Of a stretch of 64,000 bases of DNA, positions 1,178-25,698 are shown piece after piece. Both the position numbers and the translations under genes were made by a program. Position 1 is the first letter of the stretch, and each line of letters begins with the position of its first letter. The notes beneath the pieces are model-generated. The model saw only the letters and a list, made by a program, of their open reading frames with translations. It ran no database searches and was not told the DNA's origin. Source of the stretch: Cytobacillus oceanisediminis (GTDB lineage: Bacteria; Bacillota; Bacilli; Bacillales; Cytobacillaceae); assembly GCF_004366035.1 (NCBI RefSeq), contig NZ_SOEE01000001.1:434001-498000 (forward strand). The letters run 5' to 3'.

Positions 1178-2485
1178 TCAACCAGTAACTGCTGGTGGTG
1201 TTACGTTAATAACAACGAATTTGTTATCATAAATAGGCTTACCATCATAACGAGCAGTACCTTTGAAAACTGTTTGATCTTGGATGAAACGGACATCAGT
1301 TGAAACCGCTAATTGAACTCCTCTGCGTTCTCCAAGTAAGTATTTTTTGAAGTCTCCAAGAACGATTGTGTTATCAGGAGTATATTGATTAAATACAATT
1401 CTAGTTCCATCTGGTAAACGAGGATTAGAAGTTCCGGCAATAACATATTGTCCTTGGTCATTAGCTAGGAATGTTTGTGGCGCAATTACACTGTAATAGA
1501 ATGAACGTTTCATTACTGCAATAACTTCTCCGATTGGTGGACCATCTTCTCCGGAATCAATAAGGGCCATTTTGCTCATGATATCTTTTAATGTTCCATC
1601 TGATGTCACAATTTGATCTGGAGCATTTGCAGTCAATTCTGTAATAATTCCCATTGGTTGCTTCTGAGCAGCTCCCTCGCCATTAAGAATTGCATCATCA
1701 ATAGCTTTAGCGATTGCCATAGCTAGTCGAGTTTCAAGGAAGTTAGCAAGGTTAATCATGCTATCTTCAAGTGTGGCATTACATACAGGGATAAATCCAC
1801 CAACTTTGAAACAATCTAATTCAGTCTGAGAGAATGCAGTAGCTAATTCTTCCACAGGATCACAACATTCAACCCAGATTGCTTCAGGGATAGCACCATC
1901 CATGATGATACGAGCTGTACCATTCAATTGTTCAACCATTACTTCACGGTAAAGAGTTCCATAATCACCCAGACGGTTCTGAATCATATTTACAACTTGC
2001 TCTGGGATTAAAACATCTGTACCGGACAATGCTCTCTTATCTTTTGCAGCAGAAGCAACGGTAGTGTAAAAATTTCGTACTTCTTCAATATCTAATCGTG
2101 CTAGCATTTGTGAACGTGTTTCAAATTTGTTAACCTTCATTCTTTCTTCCCCCTCAATTGGCGTGTTAGAATTATTTGGTTTTTGTATAGAACGTGATTC
2201 ATTATTTGGTTTAGGAGTTTCATTCAATTTTGATAATTCTTCTTCCAAACTACGAATTTCTTCTTCTAATGATAGTTTCTTTTCAGATACGCCATCGAAT
2301 TCAGCTTCTAATTTATCAATTTCGTCTTCTACAATCTGTGTTTCTTCTTCATTGGAAGCTTCTTCTAATGCCGCTGCTAATTCAGCTGATCTTTTTTCAT
2401 ATTCTTCATTGTTTTTTAGCATTTCAGCCAATGAAGCTTTGCGCTGCTCAATTTTTTTATTCAGTAACAACTGTTTTAAAGCCAT
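1178..2485 (-). CDS. Major capsid protein, HK97 fold, with N-terminal coiled-coil (delta) domain
   Basis: This is the 435-residue shell protein of the phage head. Residues about 1-90 are a highly charged Glu/Lys-rich coiled coil, like the scaffolding delta domain of HK97 gp5. A Pro/Asn/Ser-rich linker (about 92-112) follows. From about residue 115 the capsid domain shows typical family features, such as PEAIWVECCDPVEELATAF and a late ATTDVRF-like segment reading AVSTDVRFIQDQTVF. The prohead protease encoded just upstream presumably removes the first ~115 residues. Start ATG at 2485 overlaps the protease gene by 29 nt, with AAGGGAG upstream. The overlap and order portal-protease-capsid are standard for HK97-type heads. 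Confidence 0.93.
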   Translation of the reverse strand: MALKQLLLNKKIEQRKASLAEMLKNNEEYEKRSAELAAALEEASNEEETQIVEDEIDKLEAEFDGVSEKKLSLEEEIRSLEEELSKLNETPKPNNESRSIQKPNNSNTPIEGEERMKVNKFETRSQMLARLDIEEVRNFYTTVASAAKDKRALSGTDVLIPEQVVNMIQNRLGDYGTLYREVMVEQLNGTARIIMDGAIPEAIWVECCDPVEELATAFSQTELDCFKVGGFIPVCNATLEDSMINLANFLETRLAMAIAKAIDDAILNGEGAAQKQPMGIITELTANAPDQIVTSDGTLKDIMSKMALIDSGEDGPPIGEVIAVMKRSFYYSVIAPQTFLANDQGQYVIAGTSNPRLPDGTRIVFNQYTPDNTIVLGDFKKYLLGERRGVQLAVSTDVRFIQDQTVFKGTARYDGKPIYDNKFVVINVTPPAVTG

Positions 2486-3050
2486 TTTTTAATCGCTCCC
2501 TTAATTTCTTTTTTCTTAATTCTAATTGTCTTCTCTTATGCTGTTCTAAGTCGTTCTTCCTAGCTTGAACGGATGTATCACCATATGCCGGGAATGTAAC
2601 GACAGAAACCTCGAATAGTTCAACATCCTTCAATGTCCATTTGATAGTACCGTCATCATTGAATTCGGTTTCTTCTTCACGGATGTTAAAACCGAATGAA
2701 CATTGGTCTACATCACCACGCTGGACACGCTCATAAAGATTAACAGCATCAGTATCTTTAGGATTCACATTGATTGTCCCCCACAGCCCTCTACTATCAG
2801 TTCTGAGACTCAATGTTCCTGCTTTAGACCTTCCCAATACTAATCTATGGTCATGGTCTATTAACGCTCTGACATCGTTGCTTAGCGTATTGTCAAACGC
2901 TCCTGAATCAATTTCCTCGAATGCTCCTCTAAATAATTCAGTAGGAGAATTAAACACTGCAAAATATCCTTCAATGACCATATCATCATTTTCAGCACGT
3001 GTTTTTAATTCGCTATTCATAATAGTAGATTTGCGAGTTTCCATCTTCAT
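2457..3050 (-). CDS. Prohead maturation protease, HK97 family (peptidase U35)
   Basis: The 197-residue protein matches caudoviral prohead proteases. The N-terminal part reads MVIEGYFAVFNSPTELFRG, followed by a conserved DHD-like segment (ALIDHDHRLVLGRSKAGTL) that holds the catalytic His, and a later SFGFNI and FEVSVVTFPAYGDT segment with the catalytic Ser region. It cleaves the capsid delta domain during head maturation. The last ~25 residues are very basic and overlap the capsid start. The start is ATG at 3050 after GGTGGTG; a second ATG two codons later is possible. A terminator-like hairpin separates it from the portal gene. Confidence 0.92.
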   Translation of the reverse strand: MKMETRKSTIMNSELKTRAENDDMVIEGYFAVFNSPTELFRGAFEEIDSGAFDNTLSNDVRALIDHDHRLVLGRSKAGTLSLRTDSRGLWGTINVNPKDTDAVNLYERVQRGDVDQCSFGFNIREEETEFNDDGTIKWTLKDVELFEVSVVTFPAYGDTSVQARKNDLEQHKRRQLELRKKKLRERLKNGFKTVVTE

Positions 3051-3108: not shown

Positions 3109-4320
3109 TTATTCTGCATCGACTTCGACATTACCAATTAATTTCTTTTGGTCACCTAATCTGTCAGCTGGCAAATAATTCTCGAGAATAAGCATTTCTT
3201 CCATATCATCATCAGGGCTTAAACCCATCCAATTTCTCCATTCATTACGTCTCAAAGACATTCTATCAACCATAATCGCTCCTACGTCCGCCAATTCTTT
3301 TAAATCATAGGCATATAAACTCCTTGAATTTAATTTAAAGTACATATCTGGAGCTAATATTAATCCTTTTGTTAATACTTGCTGAATAATTTGTGCCAAA
3401 GGGAGGATAGTAGAATTAATAAAATTGTTATATTCATCCTTGCTATAGCTTCCGACTCCAAGAAAAAAAGCAGGAACACCGAATATGCCTGCTACTGTCT
3501 TTTTATCCAGCTCTACTGCTTCGTTTAAGGCTAAGTCTTTTAAAGATAATGGTTTTACTTGTTGCACTTCTAAAAGGTCAGCAGGGATTATCCAAGGCTG
3601 TCCAGCTTCACTTGTTTCTAGGTACTTATTAAATACAGCGTTCCTTCCTTCTTCACTAGATAACTCTGCTGTATTAGCATCAACCTTAACAATTAATGAG
3701 GGCATATATTTATTAGACATAAACCCTTTTTTGGTATAACCGGCTTGCTTTAGGTTGTCCACAACATCTTTTAGGACTACTTTGTATCCTCTACCCAAAT
3801 ATGGTTTCTCAGGGTCAGGGTCAATTGCAAAATGCAATACTTCATTGTAGTTATATTCCTGTCCTCTAATCCAAACTTGATAAGTTTCGAAATCTAAATT
3901 CAAATCTGTAAAACTAAACATAGATGGAGGTATAGGAATCAGATTGTCAATTAATCCATTTCTTATTTTCGGAAGAACAACTGCATTTCCGTCACCTTCA
4001 AGCAACATGGTATGTACTATATTGTACATCCAGTTCTTTCTAGTCATAAGATTGTATGGATTAACGTCAATTTTTCTAGATAATGCATTATCAATCTTTA
4101 CATTTCCATTAGGTGTATTCAGCATAAGGTGTATACTCATTGATGAAACAAGATCCGCTATTTTATCAACGCATATCCTCACTTCTGGATTGTCTATTAA
4201 CCTAGTATAACCAACTACACATAAATCATTGAATGCAGTATCCGTTAATAAATAACCAATCTGAGGTGTTGGGGATGTGGAAGACCGATTATTATTATTC
4301 TTCCTTCTCTTTTTTTTCAT
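3109..4320 (-). CDS. Portal protein, HK97 family
   Basis: The 403-residue protein is the dodecameric DNA-entry vertex of the procapsid. It has a basic Asn/Lys-rich N-terminus followed by the family pattern: segments [18 protein letters not shown], a [20 protein letters not shown] strand-helix region, and ESSEAGQ-like [19 protein letters not shown] before the tunnel region. The C-terminal part carries [15 protein letters not shown] and [11 protein letters not shown], which usually close HK97-type portals (length 380-430). ATG at 4320 follows GGTGGTGAG. It lies 30 nt after the large terminase gene in transcription order, as expected for terminase-portal partners. Confidence 0.93.
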
Positions 4321-4350: not shown

Positions 4351-6072
4351 TTAATTATTACCTAGCCATCCTTTTGCTGTACCGCTATTCTCCATGTTCT
4401 CAATTTTTCTAATCGCTCCGAATACAGTAGCATCAAACAAATCTATCCGCTGATTAACCATAACTTTTTCATATTGGATCATATCGTCTGTTTTCTCCAT
4501 TGCATGTACATTTTGGACGCAATATTCAAATGCGTCTGAGTGCAAGTAATAAAACTGTCCATCTTTTACTTTTTTCTCAATTCTTCTGAATCCTTTTGAC
4601 TTCTTATGGAAATATTGTGGTTGGTCAATCATCTTGAATCCTTCTTTTCGCATCATCAAGTAAAATTCATCAGCGAATTTCCTATCAAATCCAATTTGTT
4701 TAATCTTGAAGCCCATTTGTTTCATTTTCTTGAACCAATCAACAACATCTTTGTATTCCACTGTAGGTGTGTTTGATAATGTTAACCATCCATCATCTTT
4801 CCAACCAAATAAAGGTATGTTATCTTCCTCGGCTTTGGAAGCAGCAGCAGTGATAGGGAAGAATGCATGAGTTATCGAAATATCAACCCCGTTATATTCA
4901 CCATACAAAGAAGTTGCTGTTAAATCATGCATTTTTGATAGGTCAGCTCCGCCGTACCATTCAATATTCATCTTGGACAGTTCTTCCAATGTCCACTTAT
5001 ACTTTCCGTCACTAGCTTTGAATTCTTCAATGTCAAAGTATGCTCTAGTTGCAGAAGTATAGATATTCAACGATTTAGCAAAGAAGTCCTTACGCTGCTG
5101 AGGGTCATTCTGTGCCTGCTTAGCATCATTCAATATGTCCTGTGGTCGGATAGACACTCCGTAATTTGGATTAGCTTTTTCATGCTGTACAGGATCTAGG
5201 AAATCAACATTACCTTTTTCATCCTGGTCAGCTTTTGCAATGAAGATAAAGTATTGGTCATCTACAATCGACTTGTCTAAAACCTTCTTGCAATACTGTA
5301 ATCTGTTATAACAAAAGCTATTCATATTATCACCGGCAGTAGTAATCCCAATCATCAGCTTGTTTGTATAAGCTTTCATCGACTCTTTAATGATGTTGTA
5401 CTGTTTTGGTGTACGATACGCATGCATTTCATCAGCTATGCCGATATTACAATTCAAAGAATCCTGCTTATCTGGGTTTGCTGCTAATGCTTGGATGAAC
5501 AGACTTCCATCAGAAAAATTACCAGTAATGGAGTGTTCCATATTATTATCAATAATTCGGAAATTATCTTTCTCACCCATTTCATGAATGTTGTATTTGA
5601 TGAAATTAAAACTTTCCATAGATTGTTTAAGTGCAGCCGATACAACATATACTTTAGAACCAGATTTTCTTTCCAGGATTCCCAAAGCCCAAGCTAGTCC
5701 TGCTGCAAAGCTTGTTTTTACATTCTTCCTCGGCAGGAAAATGAAAACTTCCTTTGTCACACGAACTTTAGTACCTTTGTAGAAGAAGCAGAGGATACCG
5801 TAAACCATAAACTTCTGAAATGGTTCCAATAAAAAAGGCTCCCCACGTAATGGAGTGCCATCTAATCTCTCACCTTGCATATTTACAAATGTCTTCTCAA
5901 TAATGTTAATAACAAAATCAGCGTCATCAGTACGAAAATCAAAGTTATCCCTTGCTAAAAACTCCTTAAATCTATGTGCAGCTTGAATTATTTCTTTCCC
6001 AGCTATCTTTTTACCACTAATAACTGATTCTACATAATCCATTACTACTTCATAATTCGATAATTCATTCAT
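4351..6072 (-). CDS. terL: Terminase large subunit
   Basis: This is the 573-residue packaging motor. An ATPase domain holds a Walker A-like loop PRKNVKTS (residues about 114-121) and a Walker B segment GIADEMHAY near residue 215. The C-terminal nuclease domain shows an acidic metal site ([15 protein letters not shown]) near residue 345 and a second conserved acid DRKFADE. This is the Terminase_1/YmfN-like family found with P27 small subunits. The ATG at 6072 overlaps the small-subunit stop (TAATG), indicating translational coupling. It cuts concatemeric DNA and drives it into the prohead through the portal encoded next. Confidence 0.95.
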
Positions 6073-6422
6073 TATTTACCACCCATAACCATTTGCAGCT
6101 TTGTAAGTGGCTTTTTCACCTCTTTGTCCTCCACAACCTCTTTTCGTTTAGGAATCACCACATCTTTAACAGGCTTGTAAGACTTCGGATTCAGCAGCAA
6201 GTTAGTCGCATATGCATTAATATCTTTCCGTAACTTCTCCATTAATCTGTAATTCTTCTCGTCTATCACTTGATACCCATTCTCTGCTAATTCCTTCTCG
6301 AAAACTCTATATTGATGCAGCATTCCTGCGTAAATATCAATGAGTGAGTCAAATTCTTCCCGATACGTTCCCAGGTGTTGCATGTTCTTTATGACGTCCC
6401 TTTTTATCGTTTTAACGCTCAT
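6072..6422 (-). CDS. terS: Terminase small subunit, P27 family
   Basis: The 116-residue protein recognises the phage packaging site and loads the large subunit. It matches the P27 family: a helical region with [19 protein letters not shown], then [19 protein letters not shown] and a charged tail rich in Lys/Glu. I chose ATG at 6422 because AGGTGAT lies 6 nt upstream. A GTG at 6431 lies inside that ribosome site and would add three residues. The stop overlaps the terL start. The HNH gene upstream is a usual companion of cohesive-end packaging modules. Confidence 0.9.
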
Positions 6423-6431
6423 CTCTATCAC

Positions 6432-12622: not shown

Positions 12623-13162
12623 TCAGAAAGCACCTGTCCTAAGATAATGTTTCGCCTGGTAATAAAAATGGTGATAGATCCAATTGCCAGAGTATTTTTG
12701 GTCTAAATACACGATTTCGAAATTGTATTTGGCTTTAAAGGTATTCAGCCTGCCGAGCAATGCCAATGGATTGTATTTGGAACGATACTCACCCTTAAGC
12801 ATTTTTTCGTATCCGTGTAGATCTTCCACAATTAGAGTGAAGGGAATGTCCTTTGAACGAATCAATTCATTTTCAAAAGCTGTTTGGGTATCCTTCTGGA
12901 GATTCCCTGTGATTTCATCCATGTGGGCTTTACGCTCTACCCGGCTTTTTAAAAATATGTCACGGGTTATTCCCAGTTCTTCATTCTTCGGAATCATGCA
13001 GCCATAATCACCGGTATCTAATTTTTGAATTTTTATCGGTATATCCTTCTGGCGCAAATAATCAAGAATATGGCCGTTTACATTCTCCCGGGTGTCTACA
13101 ACAATCGTGAGAGTTTTAAGGATTTTGTTTAATTCTGTGTCTGAGTAATGATAGGAGATCAT
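12623..13162 (-). CDS. ERCC4/XPF-type nuclease domain protein
   Basis: The 179-residue protein carries the XPF/ERCC4 nuclease fold. It shows VVDTREN, the LDTGDYG strand, VERKAHMDEI (the ERK-type catalytic triad) and a later FTLIVED segment. Phage members process branched DNA or act as resolvase-like nucleases during replication and packaging. ATG at 13162 follows GGAGGCAGCTAA. It overlaps the YopX gene by 4 nt, so both are translated together. Confidence 0.85.
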   Translation of the reverse strand: MISYHYSDTELNKILKTLTIVVDTRENVNGHILDYLRQKDIPIKIQKLDTGDYGCMIPKNEELGITRDIFLKSRVERKAHMDEITGNLQKDTQTAFENELIRSKDIPFTLIVEDLHGYEKMLKGEYRSKYNPLALLGRLNTFKAKYNFEIVYLDQKYSGNWIYHHFYYQAKHYLRTGAF

Positions 13163-14576: not shown

Positions 14577-16919
14577 TTATTGAACTACTTTAAAAAAGCC
14601 GTTTTCCTCGTTTTCGGTAACCCCTTTAGTAACTGGCTGGCGCTCTTTTAAGGTAATTCCTGTCAAAAACGTTTTATTTCCAGCGCCTTTCATTTTTCCG
14701 AAGCCTTTCGTTTCTAACATTCGGTAAAATGACCTGTTCCCTAAAGTGCGTTCTCCAGACTTGAAGCACCAATTGTCGTAAACCGTATATAATTCTTTGG
14801 CCTCGATTTTAATTGCTTCGTTTTTCGGCTCGTCGATGTAGCAAACTTCACCTAAGAATGGAGCCAAGATGTCCATTTCCTCTTTATAATTGCCAGTTGC
14901 ATCCACCACTACTTTAGGTTCTTTCAAGCCTGACTGTTGCCACTTTAAGCAGCCCTCGATTGCCCAATTGAGTATGCCCGGCATTTCAAAAGACAATTTC
15001 TCTTCGAGTTTCTTATCACGTTCATGAGGTTTAAGGCTTAATGTAAATGGAATAATCTTTACGCGTCTCCAGATACCATCATCCACCCCACCGATGATTG
15101 GCTTATGGTTTGTCGTGAAAAATACTTTAAATTCTGGAATAAACTCGAAATATTCTTGTCGTAAGAATCGCGCTAGAATCGGCTCACCACCGGTAATTGT
15201 CTTAACTAATGATTCCTGTAATTTTTCACCTTCTTCTGACTCCACTGCCGAAACAAACCTTGCATTTACCAACCGAGCAATATCATTGTTGGCGCCAGTA
15301 TCTTTTTTCTTAATGAACGTATCTGATTTTGTTTGTGAACCGTAATCGCCCATTAATTTTTTGATAGTATTTACAAAAGTGGACTTTCCGTTGGATCCAC
15401 CGCCGACTAAGAAATACATCGATTGCTCTGAAATATCTCCTGTGAGGGAGTAACCAACAAGTCGCTGCATGTAATCGATTAAATCTTTATCACCCTTGAA
15501 AATCTGCTCCAAAAAAATTGACCACGTTGGATATTCTGCTTTCTCATCAAATTCAACATTGGTGATTTTTGTTATTCCGAGTTCCCGATCATGCGGCTGC
15601 AGTTTACCTGTTTTTAAATCAACAATTCCGTTTTCAACATTGAGTAAATATTTATGCCGGTCAAAGTCTTCACGTTCTCCTGGAACCAATGGCATAAGGT
15701 CCTTAATGCTGTTCATCCGGATATTTCTTCTTTCGCACATTCGCGCCCATTTCGTTTCAGCTTCATCCTCTGATTTATATAAACCACGTAATACTTTAGC
15801 TGTAATCCGTTCAATTTCTTTTTTTGTATCAACTTTCCACCGTTTGCCGTCCCATATCAGCCAGCCCATATCCGATACATATTTGATTACATGGCCATAT
15901 TCATGAGCGATTCTTTCAGCATTTCCAAGCTCAGTTAATCGGAATTTCTTCTTCGTCTTTCCATCCACAACTGCAGCTGCATCTCCAACATGGAAGTCAA
16001 AAGAGAATCCTTCAAATTGCTCTTTATTATCTAATATCGTTGTAGAAGTGGAAGAAATGGCAGTTGCTATTGTTCTTTCTCCGTATGTTTCATTGGTATC
16101 TCTGAAGTGGATTACGTCCCATTTATCACGCATAAGCCCAGATTCCCGAAACATGGTATCCATTCGAGTGGAGGATTTACCTGTCCAGAATGCCAAGTGG
16201 TTACACAAGGCCAGGTCACTTGCCGAGTGATCATTTTTAATTAAGCTGCCGTTAAACAATGAGCGAATTTCATCACCGTTCTTACTGCGAAACATTCTTT
16301 CCCAAAGAGCATCATTTGAAATTTTAATTTCGTCTTTTTCAAAGTCTACTAAGTTCACGCGGCCTTGAATATCGCTGTCATCAAAATATTGTTCAAACAC
16401 TTCTGCCAGTTCGTCGGTCCGATCATAGACATCATTAGAATTTTCTCGATTGCCGGTAAAGCTGAAGTAACGGCCATAAGAATAAATCTCTAATCCATGT
16501 TTTGTATTTTTTCGGCCAGTCCCTAAAACAGATTGTGGAAGGCCACCTTTGATAATGATGTGAAGGCCGGTTCCAGAAGGAGAAAACTCTGTATAGCTGT
16601 CTAATGTATCAATAATCTCGTTTGCAAATGAATTAACCTTTCCATCCACAACACACTTATCAATATCAATTCCGATGTAGTTATCCTGTCTGCTAAATAC
16701 GAAACCTATGCCGTCATAGTCACCTTCTAAATAGAATTTGACTGCAGTTGCAAATGTTGACCAGGTACGCCTATTGTTTGCCTGGGCCATTTCACCATTT
16801 ACCTGATATGGAACCTTTGTCGGTTTTCCACCTCGTTCCTCTTTTCGCCATAAAATCCATTGAGGAAGGGCTTTTAATTCGGCAGGGATTTCGTTGAAGT
16901 TGTATGGATTTTCTTTCAT
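14577..16919 (-). CDS. D5-type DNA primase-helicase (Prim-Pol plus SF3 helicase)
   Basis: The 780-residue protein unites two activities. The N-terminal ~200 residues form a primase-polymerase domain: WILWRKEERGGKPTKVPYQ, the catalytic acids in YIGIDIDKC, and FSPSGTGLHIIIKGG. The central D5_N region leads to an SF3 helicase with Walker A VGGGSNGKSTF, a B-type segment and FFTTNHKP (sensor/motif C). The enzyme primes and unwinds phage DNA. I chose ATG at 16919 with GGAGGGA upstream; a TTG at 16931 overlaps the ribosome site. It is the main replication initiator candidate for the adjacent AT-rich gap. Confidence 0.93.
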   Translation of the reverse strand: MKENPYNFNEIPAELKALPQWILWRKEERGGKPTKVPYQVNGEMAQANNRRTWSTFATAVKFYLEGDYDGIGFVFSRQDNYIGIDIDKCVVDGKVNSFANEIIDTLDSYTEFSPSGTGLHIIIKGGLPQSVLGTGRKNTKHGLEIYSYGRYFSFTGNRENSNDVYDRTDELAEVFEQYFDDSDIQGRVNLVDFEKDEIKISNDALWERMFRSKNGDEIRSLFNGSLIKNDHSASDLALCNHLAFWTGKSSTRMDTMFRESGLMRDKWDVIHFRDTNETYGERTIATAISSTSTTILDNKEQFEGFSFDFHVGDAAAVVDGKTKKKFRLTELGNAERIAHEYGHVIKYVSDMGWLIWDGKRWKVDTKKEIERITAKVLRGLYKSEDEAETKWARMCERRNIRMNSIKDLMPLVPGEREDFDRHKYLLNVENGIVDLKTGKLQPHDRELGITKITNVEFDEKAEYPTWSIFLEQIFKGDKDLIDYMQRLVGYSLTGDISEQSMYFLVGGGSNGKSTFVNTIKKLMGDYGSQTKSDTFIKKKDTGANNDIARLVNARFVSAVESEEGEKLQESLVKTITGGEPILARFLRQEYFEFIPEFKVFFTTNHKPIIGGVDDGIWRRVKIIPFTLSLKPHERDKKLEEKLSFEMPGILNWAIEGCLKWQQSGLKEPKVVVDATGNYKEEMDILAPFLGEVCYIDEPKNEAIKIEAKELYTVYDNWCFKSGERTLGNRSFYRMLETKGFGKMKGAGNKTFLTGITLKERQPVTKGVTENEENGFFKVVQ

Positions 16920-16958
16920 TTCTCCCTCCAATGAAGCTTATTTACCTAATTTGGGTAT

Positions 16959-17502: not shown

Positions 17503-18174
17503 CTACTTTGCGGATGACACTAATAATTCTTCTTGAATGCAGCCTTTACGTTGATCCAAATGGTTCTTGGCAAAAATGCTTTGGTTACCTTCTAGTAGAA
17601 AGCCTCTTGTACCATCTGCTTTTCTTACCAATCGAGCTACAACATGCACAATTCCCATGACATGATTGACGATTTTATCTCGAATATCCGGAATGAATTG
17701 GTTATATTGCTGGCCATCGTCATGGATGATACTGCGTGTAGTTTCCCAAGCAGTATAGAGAACGTTGGCATCCAGTCCATTGAAAGTTTCAACAACCTTA
17801 AGTAAGTGATTGTCGTACAAGGCATAATCTTTTAATTCCGGCATTCCACTCTTTGTTTTTTCGCCTCTGTGCATCAGCCAAAGTTTCTGGTAGTGGGTGA
17901 GGTTATCTACGAAGATATTGTCATAGTTTCCGAGATTCGCTTTCGCATAAGCATAGAAATCTAAAATACTTTGGTGGGGATCAGCCACGTTAATCTTGGC
18001 GACATCGACATTTGCATATCCTTCTAACACCTGGCTGGTTCCATCAATATCAAGTACCAATGTTTTACCTGGTAATAAACCGGCCACTGTGGTTTTTCCA
18101 TCACCAGGCTTTGAATAGATGATGATTTTTGCTTTCTTACTTTTTTTAATCTCAGACCCATTTGTGATTTCCAC
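17503..18174 (-). CDS. RecA-like AAA ATPase (AAA_24, Sak4-type single-strand annealing)
   Basis: The 223-residue protein has a Walker A (YSKPGDGKTTVAG, residues about 20-32), a Walker B (NIFVDNLTH) and the conserved TLVLDIDGTS strand of the AAA_24/Sak4 family. Sak4 proteins are minimal RecA-like recombinases acting with an SSB partner; the DUF669 gene next door fits that role. The start is GTG at 18174 after GGAGGTG. With the Gam-like protein upstream it forms a recombination cassette. Confidence 0.88.
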   Translation of the reverse strand: MEITNGSEIKKSKKAKIIIYSKPGDGKTTVAGLLPGKTLVLDIDGTSQVLEGYANVDVAKINVADPHQSILDFYAYAKANLGNYDNIFVDNLTHYQKLWLMHRGEKTKSGMPELKDYALYDNHLLKVVETFNGLDANVLYTAWETTRSIIHDDGQQYNQFIPDIRDKIVNHVMGIVHVVARLVRKADGTRGFLLEGNQSIFAKNHLDQRKGCIQEELLVSSAK

Positions 18175-20484: not shown

Positions 20485-21207
20485 TCAATCAAAACGCATT
20501 TGACTATTACAACTATCTATTTCCATCTGCATGCTTGTAGCAGGCCTCCACAACTTAATGAATCGAATCGCTTCTTCATGTTTTGATTTTGGAATATCTC
20601 CATAACGAGGAACTTTAAAATACTTCTTGAATTCATTCCAGAACGTTGAAAATACTTTGCGACTAATTTGTTGGTAAGCAAGAGAATCACTTCCACCTAA
20701 CGCTTGTATGATAGAGCTCTTTGCTTCTTGCTGGATTTCTTGTTGTTGAAGTGAATCCACCCTCATGTTGCCTTTTAGGTAGTCCACATCAGATTTAATG
20801 TTTTTAATTTCACGTTCATGTTCAAGTGCCGCTTGAAGAGCTAACTCTAATGATTGTGGAGGTGAAGGTAATTGGTCTTTAATGTTGTAATATTCATCGA
20901 CCAACATTTCATAGGCATCCCAAGCTTCATCAGTATTCAATGATTTTGCATGGAGCCAGGCTCCTTTTTCTGTCCATAGATATAGTTTGCTTACTCTTTC
21001 GACTGATACGGAATTTGCGTATTGCTTACCGAAATCTTTTAAATCCTGACCTTCTAATAAGAAAAAATGTTTTCCCTCTTTATAGCGATGCTTATTAGAA
21101 TTGAAGTTTTCAGAAATTCGTCTATTATCCGTTCCATACGAAACCGCTAATTGTGCTGTTGTTAAAATTCTTGTTCCGTTATGTTCCATGATTTTTGGTG
21201 TGTTCAT
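20485..21207 (-). CDS. Phage antirepressor with ORF6N and ORF6C domains
   Basis: The 240-residue protein has an N-terminal ORF6N domain (NGTRILTTAQLAVSYGTDNR, residues about 10-85) and a C-terminal ORF6C domain (about 140-230, KVFSTFWNEFKKYFKVPRYG). Such proteins act early to relieve or modify repression. It sits directly downstream of the Cro-like gene at the head of the early operon. ATG at 21207 follows AGAGGAGAAC. Its exact partner here is unproven. Confidence 0.88.
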   Translation of the reverse strand: MNTPKIMEHNGTRILTTAQLAVSYGTDNRRISENFNSNKHRYKEGKHFFLLEGQDLKDFGKQYANSVSVERVSKLYLWTEKGAWLHAKSLNTDEAWDAYEMLVDEYYNIKDQLPSPPQSLELALQAALEHEREIKNIKSDVDYLKGNMRVDSLQQQEIQQEAKSSIIQALGGSDSLAYQQISRKVFSTFWNEFKKYFKVPRYGDIPKSKHEEAIRFIKLWRPATSMQMEIDSCNSQMRFD

Positions 21208-21515: not shown

Positions 21516-21815
21516 ATGAAACTAATTTCATTGTCTGAAAAGCTATTGAAATACATGGTTACCGAATATAAGAAAACTGGCAAAGAGGTATTCACATTCG
21601 AAAAAATACAAAATGAGTTGCCAGAAATCGAAGAGCATTTTCTTAACAAATCTTTATTTAAACTTAAATCCGATGGTCTTATCAAAATTTTCGAAGCCGA
21701 TAACATCGCCTATACTTCCACTTTGCTACCGCAAGCGATAATTCATGTGGAAGAAAATACTTTGTTAAAAAAGGGATATACAGCTATTAAAGAAATCAAG
21801 TCCTTGCTGGTTTAA
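21516..21815 (+). CDS. YjcQ-like winged-helix protein
   Basis: The 99-residue protein is encoded against the direction of its neighbours. GGAGGAGGTGAT lies upstream of ATG 21516; a GTG at 21507 is inside that site. The N-terminal helices and EHFLNKSLFKLKSDGLIKIF form a winged-helix pattern. The end, LLKKGYTAIKEIKSLL, resembles the end of the B. subtilis YjcQ family. It has its own -10 box and so may be expressed in the lysogen as an accessory gene. Function unknown. Confidence 0.6.
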   Translation: MKLISLSEKLLKYMVTEYKKTGKEVFTFEKIQNELPEIEEHFLNKSLFKLKSDGLIKIFEADNIAYTSTLLPQAIIHVEENTLLKKGYTAIKEIKSLLV

Positions 21816-22045
21816 TCAACTACAATCCAATCGTTAGCCACAATGTCTGACGCACTGGGCTGCCACCCTCTGCGTTGGGCATTTGGTTTTGTTTTGCTTA
21901 CTTTCGGTCCATCAATAACTACCAATATACATCTGTCACTTGAATCAGTTGGTTTAATTTTTATACATTCCCATCCACCATCTGTATCTCTCTGAATATG
22001 CTTACCTTGCTCTTTTGCTTTCTTCGCAGCTTCTTGAATATTCAT
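21812..22045 (-). CDS. tad2: Tad2-like anti-Thoeris protein (DUF2829)
   Basis: The 77-residue protein matches the DUF2829 family. It begins MNIQEAAKKAKEQGKHI, has a central strand reading CIKIKPTDSSDRCILVV, and ends in the family hallmark RGWQPSASDIVANDWIVVD. Characterised Tad2 proteins bind the cyclic ADP-ribose-type signal made by Thoeris ThsB and so block host defence. It is the first gene left of the operator region, from a promoter at 22255-22283. ATG at 22045 follows GGAGGTGA; GTG at 22054 lies within that site. Function is inferred from family membership. Confidence 0.75.
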   Translation of the reverse strand: MNIQEAAKKAKEQGKHIQRDTDGGWECIKIKPTDSSDRCILVVIDGPKVSKTKPNAQRRGWQPSASDIVANDWIVVD

Positions 22046-22072
22046 CTCTTTCACCTCCTCCCCATTAACGAA

Positions 22073-22338: not shown

Positions 22339-22662
22339 ATGACTGCTTTTGATCGCTTAAAAAAACTTTGTGACAGTCAAGGAATATCTGTAAATAAATT
22401 GGAGGAAAAAATCGGATTAAGCAAAAATACCCTTTATTCTTGGAAGAAAAACACACCAAAAGGAAGCAACCTTATCAAAGTAAGTGATTACTTCGATGTA
22501 TCAACAGATTATCTTCTTGGTCGTACTGATAAAAAGAGGATTGATGAAATAAAGAATGATCCTTATAAAGTAATCGCTGCCCATATAGATGATGATGTAA
22601 CTGACAAAGAATTAGAAGATATTAAGAATTTTATCGAATTTGTAAAAAGTAAACGTAAATAG
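22339..22662 (+). CDS. ImmR-like phage repressor (XRE family)
   Basis: The 107-residue protein has an N-terminal XRE helix-turn-helix (FDRLKKLCDSQGISVNKLEE, then KNTLYSWKKNTPKG) and the typical NYFDVSTDYLLGRT-type transition (here SDYFDVSTDYLLGRTDKK). The C-terminal ~40 residues are an acidic helix. It lacks a LexA-type peptidase domain; instead the next gene encodes an ImmA-like protease. That pairing is the ICEBs1/phi105 style of immunity, with repressor cleavage triggering induction. ATG at 22339 follows AAAGGAAACG. Three palindromic operators lie upstream. Confidence 0.88.
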   Translation: MTAFDRLKKLCDSQGISVNKLEEKIGLSKNTLYSWKKNTPKGSNLIKVSDYFDVSTDYLLGRTDKKRIDEIKNDPYKVIAAHIDDDVTDKELEDIKNFIEFVKSKRK

Positions 22663-22683: not shown

Positions 22684-23154
22684 ATGAACAAATTAGAAAA
22701 ATTAATGGATAAATATAATCACTTAAATTTTACTTTTACTAATGATATGCCTAATAAATTGAGAGGGCTATGTATTGGTAATGACATTTACATTAATAAT
22801 CAAACAAATAAAACAATCTCAGAAAAGATAGTAACTATAAGTGAAGAAATTGCTCATTTTGAAACGACCATAGGAAATATAATTGACCAGCAGTCTTTAA
22901 TGAATAGAAAACAAGAACATCTTGCTCGAAAATTAGGAGGAGAACGCTTATTTACTTTAGATGATTTAATTAGATGTTGGCAAAATGGAATTAGAGCACC
23001 TTGGGATATTGCTGAGGAATTAGACATTACAGTTGAAAGTGTATTAGCCACTATAGAAAATTATAGGAATTCTTTAGGAGTCCGCTTTCGATATAAGGAT
23101 TATTGTATAAGATTTATATCTGATATGAATGTGAGAATTAAAAAAAAAATATGA
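22684..23154 (+). CDS. ImmA/IrrE-like metallopeptidase
   Basis: The 156-residue protein belongs to the ImmA/IrrE (DUF955) family. The metal-binding helix reads VTISEEIAHFETT, the variant in which the first His of HExxH is replaced by Glu, as is common in phage members. It is followed by NRKQEHLARKLGG. The C-terminal half holds a helix-turn-helix-like segment (PWDIAEELDITVESVLATIE). Members cleave the partner repressor to induce excision. It lies 21 nt after the repressor gene and 16 nt before integrase, in one transcript. Confidence 0.82.
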   Translation: MNKLEKLMDKYNHLNFTFTNDMPNKLRGLCIGNDIYINNQTNKTISEKIVTISEEIAHFETTIGNIIDQQSLMNRKQEHLARKLGGERLFTLDDLIRCWQNGIRAPWDIAEELDITVESVLATIENYRNSLGVRFRYKDYCIRFISDMNVRIKKKI

Positions 23155-23170
23155 AGGGAGACAAATTGTA

Positions 23171-24586
23171 ATGACTGTAGGAATATACATACGTGTTTCT
23201 ACTATCGAACAAGCCAAAGAGGGTTATTCTATCGCAGCACAAAAAGAACGCTTAACAGCCTATTGTGCTGCTCAAGGGTGGTCTGATATTCGCTTTTATG
23301 TAGATGAAGGTGTTTCTGCAAAGGATACGAACCGTCCACAATTGCAACTTCTCCTAGAACATGTGAAGTCTGAGAAAATTTCCACTATCTTAGTTTATCG
23401 CCTGGACCGATTCACTCGTTCTGTAATTGATTTATATAATTTATTGAACCTTTTAGAAAAACATAAATGTACATTCAAATCAGCTACAGAGATATACGAC
23501 ACATCCAGTGCTATGGGGAGGATGTTTATAGGACTTGTAGCGCTTCTTGCACAATGGGAAAGGGAAAACCTCTCTGAGCGTGTAAAAATGGCTCTAGAGG
23601 AAAAGGTGTCGTCTGGAGAACGTGTAGGGAATGTTCCTTATGGATTTGATTTGAGTGATGAAGAAAAACTTATTAAAAATGATAAGGCAACTGTAGTCCT
23701 AGATATGATCGACAAAGTTAAAAAGGGGATGTCTGCCTCGAAATTGGCAGCTTACTTGAATAAAACAAATAACGATAGAACCTGGCACCCTCAAGGTGTA
23801 CTAAGGATTTTAAAAAATCCTGCTTTATATGGAGCTACATATTGGCAGGGGAAAATATACGAAAATACACATCCAAAAGAAGCGATTATAAGCAAAGATG
23901 AGTTTAACCGCCTACAAAATATGCTTAATGATCGCTCTATCCACCACAGGAGGGATGTGGAAAGCCATTACTTATTCCAAGGAAAGCTTATATGCCCTAA
24001 TTGCCAGAAACCTTTATCTGTCAATAGATATGTCAGAAAGCGTAAAGATGGTAGTCAGTATCAAGGCTGCATTTATAAATGCCAGAACTGTTGGAAACAA
24101 GGAAAGACTATGCTTTCAATTGGAGAGCAAAGATTTGTGGATGCCTTATATGAATACATGAAAAATGTAGAAATAACTAACATCGAAAAGCCAATCGAAT
24201 CTAATCATGACAGTAAGCCTTTAATAGATCAGTTAGACCAAATTGAAAAAATGCGCGAAAAATACCAAAGAGCCTGGGCAATGGATAAAATGACAGACGA
24301 AGAATTTGATAAAAGAATGGATGAAACTCGAGAAGTCAGTGAGGATTTAAAAAGAAGGCTAAAAGAAATAGAATCCCCTGAATCAATCGATACAGAGGCC
24401 ATAAAAAAGATGATATTTACTTTTAATGAATCATTTAGATACCTTAATCAAGAAGAGAAATCAATGTATGTATCTCAATTTATTAGAAGAATAGAATTTA
24501 ATCTAAAACCTCAACCTCCGCAAAGACCTGATAAAGCCAAGAAGGGAAAGGATTTAGTGGTTATTACGAATGTAGAATTTTATTAG
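23171..24586 (+). CDS. int: Large serine recombinase (prophage integrase)
   Basis: The 471-residue protein has a resolvase N-domain with catalytic Ser in YIRVSTIEQAKEGYSI (Ser at about residue 10) and the conserved LVYRLDRFTRS and GRMFIGLVALLAQWERE segments. A recombinase domain and a zinc ribbon (CPNC, then CQNC, residues about 275-310) follow. A coiled coil is embedded near residues 345-400. Such integrases cut att sites with a 2-nt overhang and need a directionality factor to excise. The gene ends 3 nt before the comGA fragment, so attachment DNA starts at its stop. No terminator follows it. Confidence 0.95.
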   Translation: MTVGIYIRVSTIEQAKEGYSIAAQKERLTAYCAAQGWSDIRFYVDEGVSAKDTNRPQLQLLLEHVKSEKISTILVYRLDRFTRSVIDLYNLLNLLEKHKCTFKSATEIYDTSSAMGRMFIGLVALLAQWERENLSERVKMALEEKVSSGERVGNVPYGFDLSDEEKLIKNDKATVVLDMIDKVKKGMSASKLAAYLNKTNNDRTWHPQGVLRILKNPALYGATYWQGKIYENTHPKEAIISKDEFNRLQNMLNDRSIHHRRDVESHYLFQGKLICPNCQKPLSVNRYVRKRKDGSQYQGCIYKCQNCWKQGKTMLSIGEQRFVDALYEYMKNVEITNIEKPIESNHDSKPLIDQLDQIEKMREKYQRAWAMDKMTDEEFDKRMDETREVSEDLKRRLKEIESPESIDTEAIKKMIFTFNESFRYLNQEEKSMYVSQFIRRIEFNLKPQPPQRPDKAKKGKDLVVITNVEFY

Positions 24587-24614
24587 TCTTTATCTAACGT
24601 TAGGAGTTGGGCCT
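24587..24614. other. Prophage/host junction (attL or attR)
   Basis: Reading the minus strand, comGA-type sequence encodes LIIFTGPT down to about 24605 and then departs from the expected GSGKTTT, giving PNVR and a stop. The recombination core must therefore lie in or just before about 24605-24614. A perfect 10-bp palindrome, CTAACGTTAG (24594-24603), sits on the phage side and may be part of the integrase arm site. The exact crossover dinucleotide cannot be fixed from one junction. Confidence 0.75.
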
Positions 24615-25042
24615 GTGAAAATAATTAATCCATGAGCATGTTTCAGTAATGCTAGCATTTTTCTTGTCATGTCTGGAAAAAGGCTGATTTGAAAAAAAGG
24701 AATCTGTTCTTGCTGGGGCAGAATTCTGATAACGAGGCTTTCGCTGTGGCTTGATGGGAGGGTTGAAAACCGCAGTCCAATCATTTGTCCATCCACTTCA
24801 AGGGAATAAGCACCGCTTTGCGGCCGTCTTTTTTCACCAATGTCCATCGAAGCGGTAAATTTAAAATGAGAAATCAGTCTGTCGCACTCTTCTTTGGGAA
24901 GATAAAGCCTGGGAGTCAATTGGCTGCCGAACCTCAGCTGAATTAGAGTGTCTTTTCTTCGGGGAATAATGTGGATGTCGGAAGCATGGCTCCTGACGGC
25001 GTCTTTGATAATTCGTTCTGCCATTCTTTCAATTATACTCAA
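24590..25042 (-). pseudogene. comGA: comGA, 5' fragment interrupted by the prophage
   Basis: ComGA is the traffic ATPase that powers assembly of the competence pseudopilus for DNA uptake. The fragment encodes 150 residues of the usual ~350. It contains ASDIHIIPRRKDTLIQLRFG, then MDIGEKRRPQSGAYSLEVDG and STLPSSHSESLVIRILPQ, all standard for the N-domain. It stops exactly inside Walker A (FTGPT, then PNVR instead of GSGKT), so it has no ATPase core. The start is TTG at 25042 after GGTGGTG. An AT-box resembling half a ComK site (AAAA-N5-ATTT at 25144-25156) lies upstream. Precise excision should restore the gene. Confidence 0.93.
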
Positions 25043-25189: not shown

Positions 25190-25261
25190 TGGGCTATAGC
25201 CAAGCGGTAAGGCACCGGACTTTGACTCCGTCATGCGCAGGTTCGAATCCTGCTAGCCCAG
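25190..25261 (+). tRNA. trnQ: tRNA-Gln (TTG)
   Basis: The 72-nt sequence folds as a cloverleaf. TGGGCTA pairs with TAGCCCA (acceptor), the anticodon loop is CTTTGAC (anticodon TTG), and the T loop is GTTCGAATCC. G is the discriminator base; CCA is not encoded. It stands alone upstream of the comG operon and is followed by its own terminator. Confidence 0.97.
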
Positions 25262-25344: not shown

Positions 25345-25698
25345 CTATTTGGCAATATTCTTAAATGCATCCGGATTGTAGCCTATGACAATTTTATCTC
25401 CATTTGTCAGTATGGGCCTCCGCAGCAGTTTTGGCTCCTTTATTACCATTTGCACCACTTCTGATAAAGATAATTCCTCAAGGTTCTGTTCCAGTTTTTT
25501 ATAGGTCTGGCTGCGGGTAGCGAGCAGCTCATCAAGGCCGCTTGTTGTTAAGGAAAGTATTTTTAGTAATTCTCTTGATGATGGAGTCTCCCTGAAGAGA
25601 TGCCTTTCTTCAAAATCAATTGAATGGGCTGTCAGCCATTTTTTCGTCTTTCTGCAGGAAGTACAGCTGGGATATGTGAAAAATGTCAATTGGCTCAT
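25345..25698 (-). CDS. mgsR: MgsR/Spx-family stress regulator
   Basis: The 117-residue protein belongs to the ArsC/Spx superfamily and corresponds by sequence and position to B. subtilis YqgZ/MgsR, which modulates part of the general stress regulon through RNA polymerase. The redox motif TYPSCTSCRKTKKWL gives a CxxC (residues about 12-15). The family signature LRRPILTNGDKIVIGYNPD is intact. ATG at 25698 follows AGGTGAAGAGG. Twin TTGTACAATA repeats lie upstream at 25738-25762. Confidence 0.88.
   Translation of the reverse strand: MSQLTFFTYPSCTSCRKTKKWLTAHSIDFEERHLFRETPSSRELLKILSLTTSGLDELLATRSQTYKKLEQNLEELSLSEVVQMVIKEPKLLRRPILTNGDKIVIGYNPDAFKNIAK

Follow-up and report, generated by a model that had tools for sequence, protein, structure and literature searches.

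ComGA is the pilus motor ATPase of DNA uptake. According to the accessible part of PMC7029219, this ATPase drives the assembly of the DNA-uptake pseudopilus, the com genes are essential for uptake, and the SpST71A prophage splits comGA in Staphylococcus pseudintermedius at 509 of its 988 bp. Prophages and islands in comYC, comFA, comK and comM, including one Bacillus cereus case with an insertion in comFA, have been discussed together with a model of intragenomic conflict (PMC4774983); in the accessible text of that paper comGA appears within a reference title only. Newer work on insertions in com genes is available, as judged from its accessible parts (PMC11472951, PMC12637031).

The window, i.e., the 64,000-nucleotide stretch of Cytobacillus oceanisediminis analyzed here (GCF_004366035.1, contig NZ_SOEE01000001.1, positions 434,001 to 498,000), carries a split comGA gene. 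In our reading, which as a whole is very probably correct, a 36.4-kb prophage of temperate siphovirus type would have entered the Walker A codons of comGA by means of its own large serine integrase, through a crossover at an AC dinucleotide, so that the motor would be lost to the host and the phage would benefit.

The split comGA gene and the prophage within it

The coding sequence of the competence gene comGA is interrupted by a prophage in this genome. The initial annotation had described a comGA frame that is normal up to FTGPT and then breaks, 3 nt from the stop codon of a large serine integrase, and both points were borne out. The 5′ ORF (24590-25042, minus strand, 150 aa) reads as ComGA up to FTGPT and continues through phage DNA as PNVR to a stop at 24590, the NCBIfam ComGA profile aligns to it over positions 2-137 of 267, and 3 nt separate it from the end of the integrase ORF at 24586. 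The 5′ part of the gene proper, from codon 1 to the Walker A threonine, covers 24605-25042 (minus strand), as delimited by the translation, the NCBIfam match and the join. The codons from GSGKTTT onward and a matching core, sought to the left of the window, were both found: the remainder of comGA, from TGSGKTTT on, is located 36.4 kb leftward at G000:C1 421545-422182 (minus strand; G000 is the window's own genome), where it forms a 232-aa ORF for which the phage DNA supplies an in-frame ATG. The two junctions have the 5-bp core CAACT in common (24605-24609, minus strand, with its partner at G000:C1 422178-422182), which delimits an inserted element of 36,427 bp. When the flanks were joined in silico at this core, FTGPT-GSGKTTT was obtained in frame (...FTGPTGSGKTTTLYS...), which agrees with the earlier claims that the prophage interrupts comGA inside its Walker A codons and that precise excision would re-form the frame.

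Nor was an intact comGA seen elsewhere, or a loss of the comG genes past the far phage end, either of which would have spoken against the initial annotation. Downstream of the C part lie comGB, comGC, comGD and comGF, each above the NCBIfam cut-off, an ORF with a ComGE match below the cut-off, an ORF without match in the place of comGG, and a shikimate kinase gene. A T2SSE family search of G000 returned four places, namely both comGA parts (the C-terminal one matched at C1:421611-422201, minus strand) and two other ATPases with frames of 514 aa and of 871 aa (the latter under the cut-off), and a ComGA-like protein query matched the two comGA pieces only, so that neither search found a second comGA in the 61-contig assembly. 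That comGA is in truth whole and that the prophage was misjoined to it during assembly is extremely improbable: we saw no point in its favor, both junctions lie within one 872,687-bp contig, the same integrase-side junction is present in an independent metagenome-assembled genome (L016, integrase 91% identical), and prophage insertion at the same codons was also found in other genera and in another family. Just past comGA, the window holds a tRNA-Gln gene (25190-25261, plus strand), which is not used by the phage, and a gene for a Spx/MgsR-family regulator (25348-25698, minus strand).

The prophage occupies positions 1-24604 of the window, as defined by the junctions and the PHROG matches, and its rest, with the tail genes, holin, endolysin and a lipoprotein gene, lies together with the comGA 3′ part left of the window (G000:C1 421545-434000). 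A PHROG scan took in twenty proteins of the element. The lysogeny genes comprise the 471-aa large serine integrase (23171-24586, plus strand; PHROG 95), an adjoining metallo-protease (22684-23154, plus strand; PHROG 87, no match in Pfam or NCBIfam), which we read as ImmA-like, a phage repressor-type transcription regulator (22339-22662, plus strand; PHROG match), a second phage transcription regulator (21812-22054, minus strand; PHROG 643) and an antirepressor (20485-21207, minus strand; PHROG 373). These are followed, all on the minus strand, by genes for a Sak4-like single-strand annealing protein (17503-18174, PHROG 124), a DNA primase/helicase (14577-16931, PHROG 1829), an ERCC4-type nuclease (12623-13162, PHROG 3490), the terminase small (6072-6431, PHROG 361) and large (4351-6072, PHROG 9) subunits, the portal protein (3109-4320, PHROG 12), the head maturation protease (2457-3050, PHROG 80) and the major head protein (1178-2485, PHROG 10). 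Besides these head, packaging, replication and lysogeny genes, the matches include a major tail protein, a tape measure protein, a holin and an endolysin. A complete gene set of the temperate siphovirus type (packaging, head, tail, lysis, replication, lysogeny) is thus present between two att sites, and judged by its genes the prophage appears complete. At its left end, at the junction, a lipoprotein-like gene (L007 7300-7914, plus strand; weak DUF4352 match, below the cut-off) is perhaps cargo. With megablast, window bases 1-24586 gave one match in 50,697 phage records, over 13% of the query and with 78% identity.

Integrase relatives and other elements in comGA

The integrase carries the Resolvase (PF00239, 138.4 bits) and, after it, the Recombinase (PF07508, 48.6 bits) domain, both above the Pfam cut-off; its zinc ribbon match (PF13408, 21.9 bits) falls below the cut-off of 25.3, and CxxC pairs are visible in the alignment. 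Its nearest relatives in phage records are the integrases of phi105 and AP45 (47-49% identity across 94% of the protein). Integrases with 60% identity or more to that of the window were found at 12 loci (the window itself, L016, G156, G167, G173, G556, a genome from a different family within the order, and six IMG/VR records), and beyond the integrase comGA is broken at Walker A in nine of the nine readable ones. Three records (L096, L097, L099) stop at the integrase stop codon and are unreadable, one side of comGA was read in L016, L095 and L100, and L095 and G167 may represent strains of one species. In two loci, L098 (G577) and L100 (G579), the integrase end adjoins the C half of comGA instead of the N half, and the insert is therefore reversed in orientation. 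G021 encodes an integrase with 50% identity and has an intact comGA, so that integrases at the distance of phi105 and AP45 need not share the site. At E ≤1e-140 an integrase was found in two of 397 genomes drawn from the order, G000 and G556.

comGA was found in all 36 genomes of the genus and in all 193 family genomes searched, and it is split by an element in 23 of the 193. Three sites are used: site A, at Walker A (FTGPT/GSGKTTT), in ten genomes (G000, G146, G121, G135, G048, G156, G047, G167, G173, G124); site B (ALTGHLV/LSTMHT) in nine (G148, G140, G088, G191, G183, G184, G129, G027, G033); and site C, near AVYRL/AEFG, in four (G122, G054, G019, G016). The number is a lower bound for comGA, the one gene that was counted, because insertions at the 3′ end or those hidden by long open frames escape detection. 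It includes G129, which lacks a convincing C half, and G054, whose halves lie 485 kb apart, both counted on the N-side junction; G047, G191, G183, G184 and G016, with comGA halves on different contigs; and the decayed G124. It excludes G078 (assembly gap) and three frameshifted genes without insert (G009, G020, G162), and G013 and G035, with intact comGA in the genus-level search, were absent from the later family-wide examination of splits. Thus, the picture of a single prophage stood as far as the split itself is concerned and was too narrow otherwise, since comGA is entered at three or more sites, by means of several unrelated recombinases. Two scans of viral contigs with comGA halves gave two loci each. 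In one IMG/VR record, L192, which is outside the count and was seen on one side, comGA breaks near residue 213 (about position 1452), by our reading in the Walker B region, and this is possibly a fourth insertion site. The paralogue pilB, which shares the Walker A motif, has an unbroken frame of at least 490 aa in 22 of the 22 matching genus genomes, too few to speak of avoidance.

Among the site A inserts, those of G000, G156, G167 and G173 measure 36-45 kb and carry the window-type integrase; phage annotation was made for that of G000 alone among the four. A second serine-integrase family, with 48-51% identity within it and 22-26% to that of the window, is encoded by the inserts of G146, G121 and G048 (about 6, 10 and 22 kb). 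The G048 island has type I restriction, specificity and methylase genes (L061, 3196-9218). In the Walker A insert of G135 neither family was found. This element (L059, 932-14600; 13.7 kb) has genes for proteins of 444, 839 and 606 aa without Pfam match, which are possibly an undescribed recombinase trio, and one G135 gene gives a weak XerA-type (tyrosine-recombinase) match. The integrase was seen in eight of the nine site B genomes (G191 stops at contig ends), and these eight form a third clade, 48-96% identical within and 32-39% identical to the integrase of the window; the same type of integrase is present at site B in the IMG/VR record L190. At site C, the elements of G019 and G122 have TGT...ACA ends and 5-bp target duplications, and that of G122 encodes a TniQ protein, and therefore these elements look like Tn7-like transposons. 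When such 5-bp duplications were looked for, a suitable pair was present in G019 and G122 and absent from G016 and G135. The site C cargo includes a SIR2 protein (LmuA/ThsA-like) in G122 (L069/L070) and RES and PIN domains in G019 (L084/L085).

The variety of these elements bears on whether the disruption is passive, comGA being used because it fits the recombinases and is dispensable, and competence loss being worthless to the element. This is possible, although we would lean against it. In G009, G020 and G162, comGA is present as two adjoining overlapping frames, which are probably frameshifts, and from these three insert-free broken genes it follows that competence loss is tolerated; furthermore, the strict match of the integrase clade to its site is what recombinase fit would give. 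However, at least two serine-integrase families, the G135 type and Tn7-like elements are all found in comGA, and published elements strike other com genes (accessible part of PMC4774983).

Attachment sites and conservation of the target codons

From the two junctions of each element a short attP stretch was reconstructed, and 31 offsets were compared for the one that best centres a palindrome. At site A, 11 of the 11 serine-integrase-type elements, seven of the window's type and four of the second, were centred on the AC of the threonine codon in Walker A; the integrase was seen beside comGA in nine of them, and G047 and G124 were assigned by their att arms only. The best centre of G135, which is among the ten site A genomes and outside the 11 elements, was one base off this AC. 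At site B, eight of the eight elements with both sides were centred on the CA within the GHLV histidine codon, and two of them have junctions that match around this centre in exactly that CA. In the window, the integrase-side attP arm TCCTAACGTTAGATAAAGACTAATA, defined by junction comparison, covers 24570-24604 (minus strand) and overlaps the 3′ end of the integrase gene, and the crossover dinucleotide AC, placed by the centre of the rebuilt attP, would be at 24606-24607 (minus strand), on positions 1 and 2 of the threonine codon in Walker A. Inverted attP arms round a putative 2-bp crossover and a short shared core, which characterize a large serine integrase, are present here. The palindrome scores at site A were 15-20 and the maxima of 300 shuffles 15-16, a modest difference for single elements (the score of G000, 16, equals its shuffle maximum), and this shuffle control covers site A; it is the agreement of the centres, and not single palindrome scores, that carries the weight.

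By this attP geometry, the crossover of the window prophage would occur at the AC of the invariant threonine codon in GPT/GSGK. Serine integrases cross over at the central dinucleotide, and therefore the obligatory match would fall on positions 1 and 2 of a codon that is invariant. The codon-phase pattern of the crossover, with two integrase families at A and one at B, is suggestive only, because there are three cases and each has a 1 in 3 probability by chance.

The initial annotation had called the target highly conserved, and this did not hold for the DNA. When 28 intact copies of comGA from the genus were compared, the 42-bp stretch at site A ranked at the 59th percentile of conservation within the gene, with codon positions 1 and 2 at the 82nd and the third positions at the 14th. 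The corresponding stretches at sites B and C rank at the 30th and 9th percentile (60th and 19th for positions 1 and 2). DNA conservation as the reason for the choice of the sites was thus rejected, the nucleotide-level ranks of the three sites giving it no support. The comGA gene looks like a shared landing site, since unrelated mobile elements in relatives use the same few codons. We tentatively propose, at a little short of an even balance, that in this bacterial family comGA is a shared landing platform on which crossovers would fall on two wobble-poor bases of invariant codons, that the elements would have converged there because motor loss protects them from transformation, and that the two-base coding constraint, and not wide conservation, would keep the target usable across genera. 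The finding bears on how serine integrases keep a protein-coding target despite third-position drift.

Competence of the lysogen and comparison with known insertions

From the known role of ComGA, splitting the P-loop should abolish DNA uptake, and the lysogen would be without its DNA-uptake motor; a partial product from the 150-aa or the 232-aa ORF is conceivable, because both halves still form ORFs. In addition, comGB and the genes after it are 36 kb away from the start of the operon. With the motor lost and these genes cut off, the lysogen would not be transformable unless the prophage leaves. The likely advantage to the prophage is that, when no DNA is taken up, it would be safe from recombination with incoming DNA carrying the empty site. 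The pathway is otherwise kept, since in the 24 interrupted genomes (the 23 plus G556) the comEC frame is open (762-810 aa) in all but G124, where it is broken, and ComK matches are above the cut-off in all 24.

These observations also bear on active lysogeny, in which the prophage would leave in a regulated, reversible manner when competence is called for and thereby re-form comGA, as with the comK prophages of Listeria. The excision geometry restores the frame in silico, the integrase and phage genes look intact, comK and comEC are retained, and the split comGA of G000 has not decayed (dN/dS to the nearest intact relative 0.066, against 0.025-0.097 for 13 intact pairs). However, a recent insertion accounts for the same facts, no directionality factor was identified, and G124 indicates that such loci can decay. 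Furthermore, among the split genes for which dN/dS could be computed (four of five, against 13 of 28 intact ones), G019 (0.083) and G027 (0.077) lie within the intact range and G016 (0.112) lies above it, so that the values fit either a recent insertion or a gene that is restored often enough for selection. Regulated excision is thus possible as far as the intact parts go, and we consider active lysogeny unlikely. As comGA is split in 23 of the 193 species genomes sampled from one family, a lack of transformability in such bacteria may often be due to an element and might be undone when that element is lost, which is relevant to the retention and loss of competence in terms of intragenomic conflict.

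Prophages in com genes, comGA included, are already known (PMC7029219 and PMC4774983, in their accessible parts). Like the window prophage, SpST71A bears an integrase and splits comGA, with competence loss inferred, whereas its hosts are staphylococci and its split point, estimated from length alone, differs from both Walker A and site B (PMC7029219). The Listeria comK prophages A118 and phi10403S also interrupt a competence gene that would be restored by precise excision; there, however, the target is the regulator comK and regulated excision is reported, whereas here the excision geometry was obtained in silico only (PMC7029219, PMC4774983). The insertions in comYC, comFA and comM are likewise recurrent strikes on transformation genes, although the genes differ (PMC4774983), and prophage phiMC1 lies at the comG locus of Macrococcus, with competence loss presumed, as here (PMC6008420). 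In the passages of open-licence papers that were examined, we met neither a prophage inserted into the Walker A codons of comGA nor a report that several recombinases use this gene, nor a description of the codon-centred geometry. What was an observation in one genome becomes a testable pattern, in which unrelated elements repeatedly break the gene of the DNA-uptake motor at a few fixed codons. Within the known kind of a prophage in a competence gene, the integrase clade and its Walker A site are new, and so are two further points, namely that several lineages of recombinases have repeatedly and independently used comGA and that the geometry is centred on codons.
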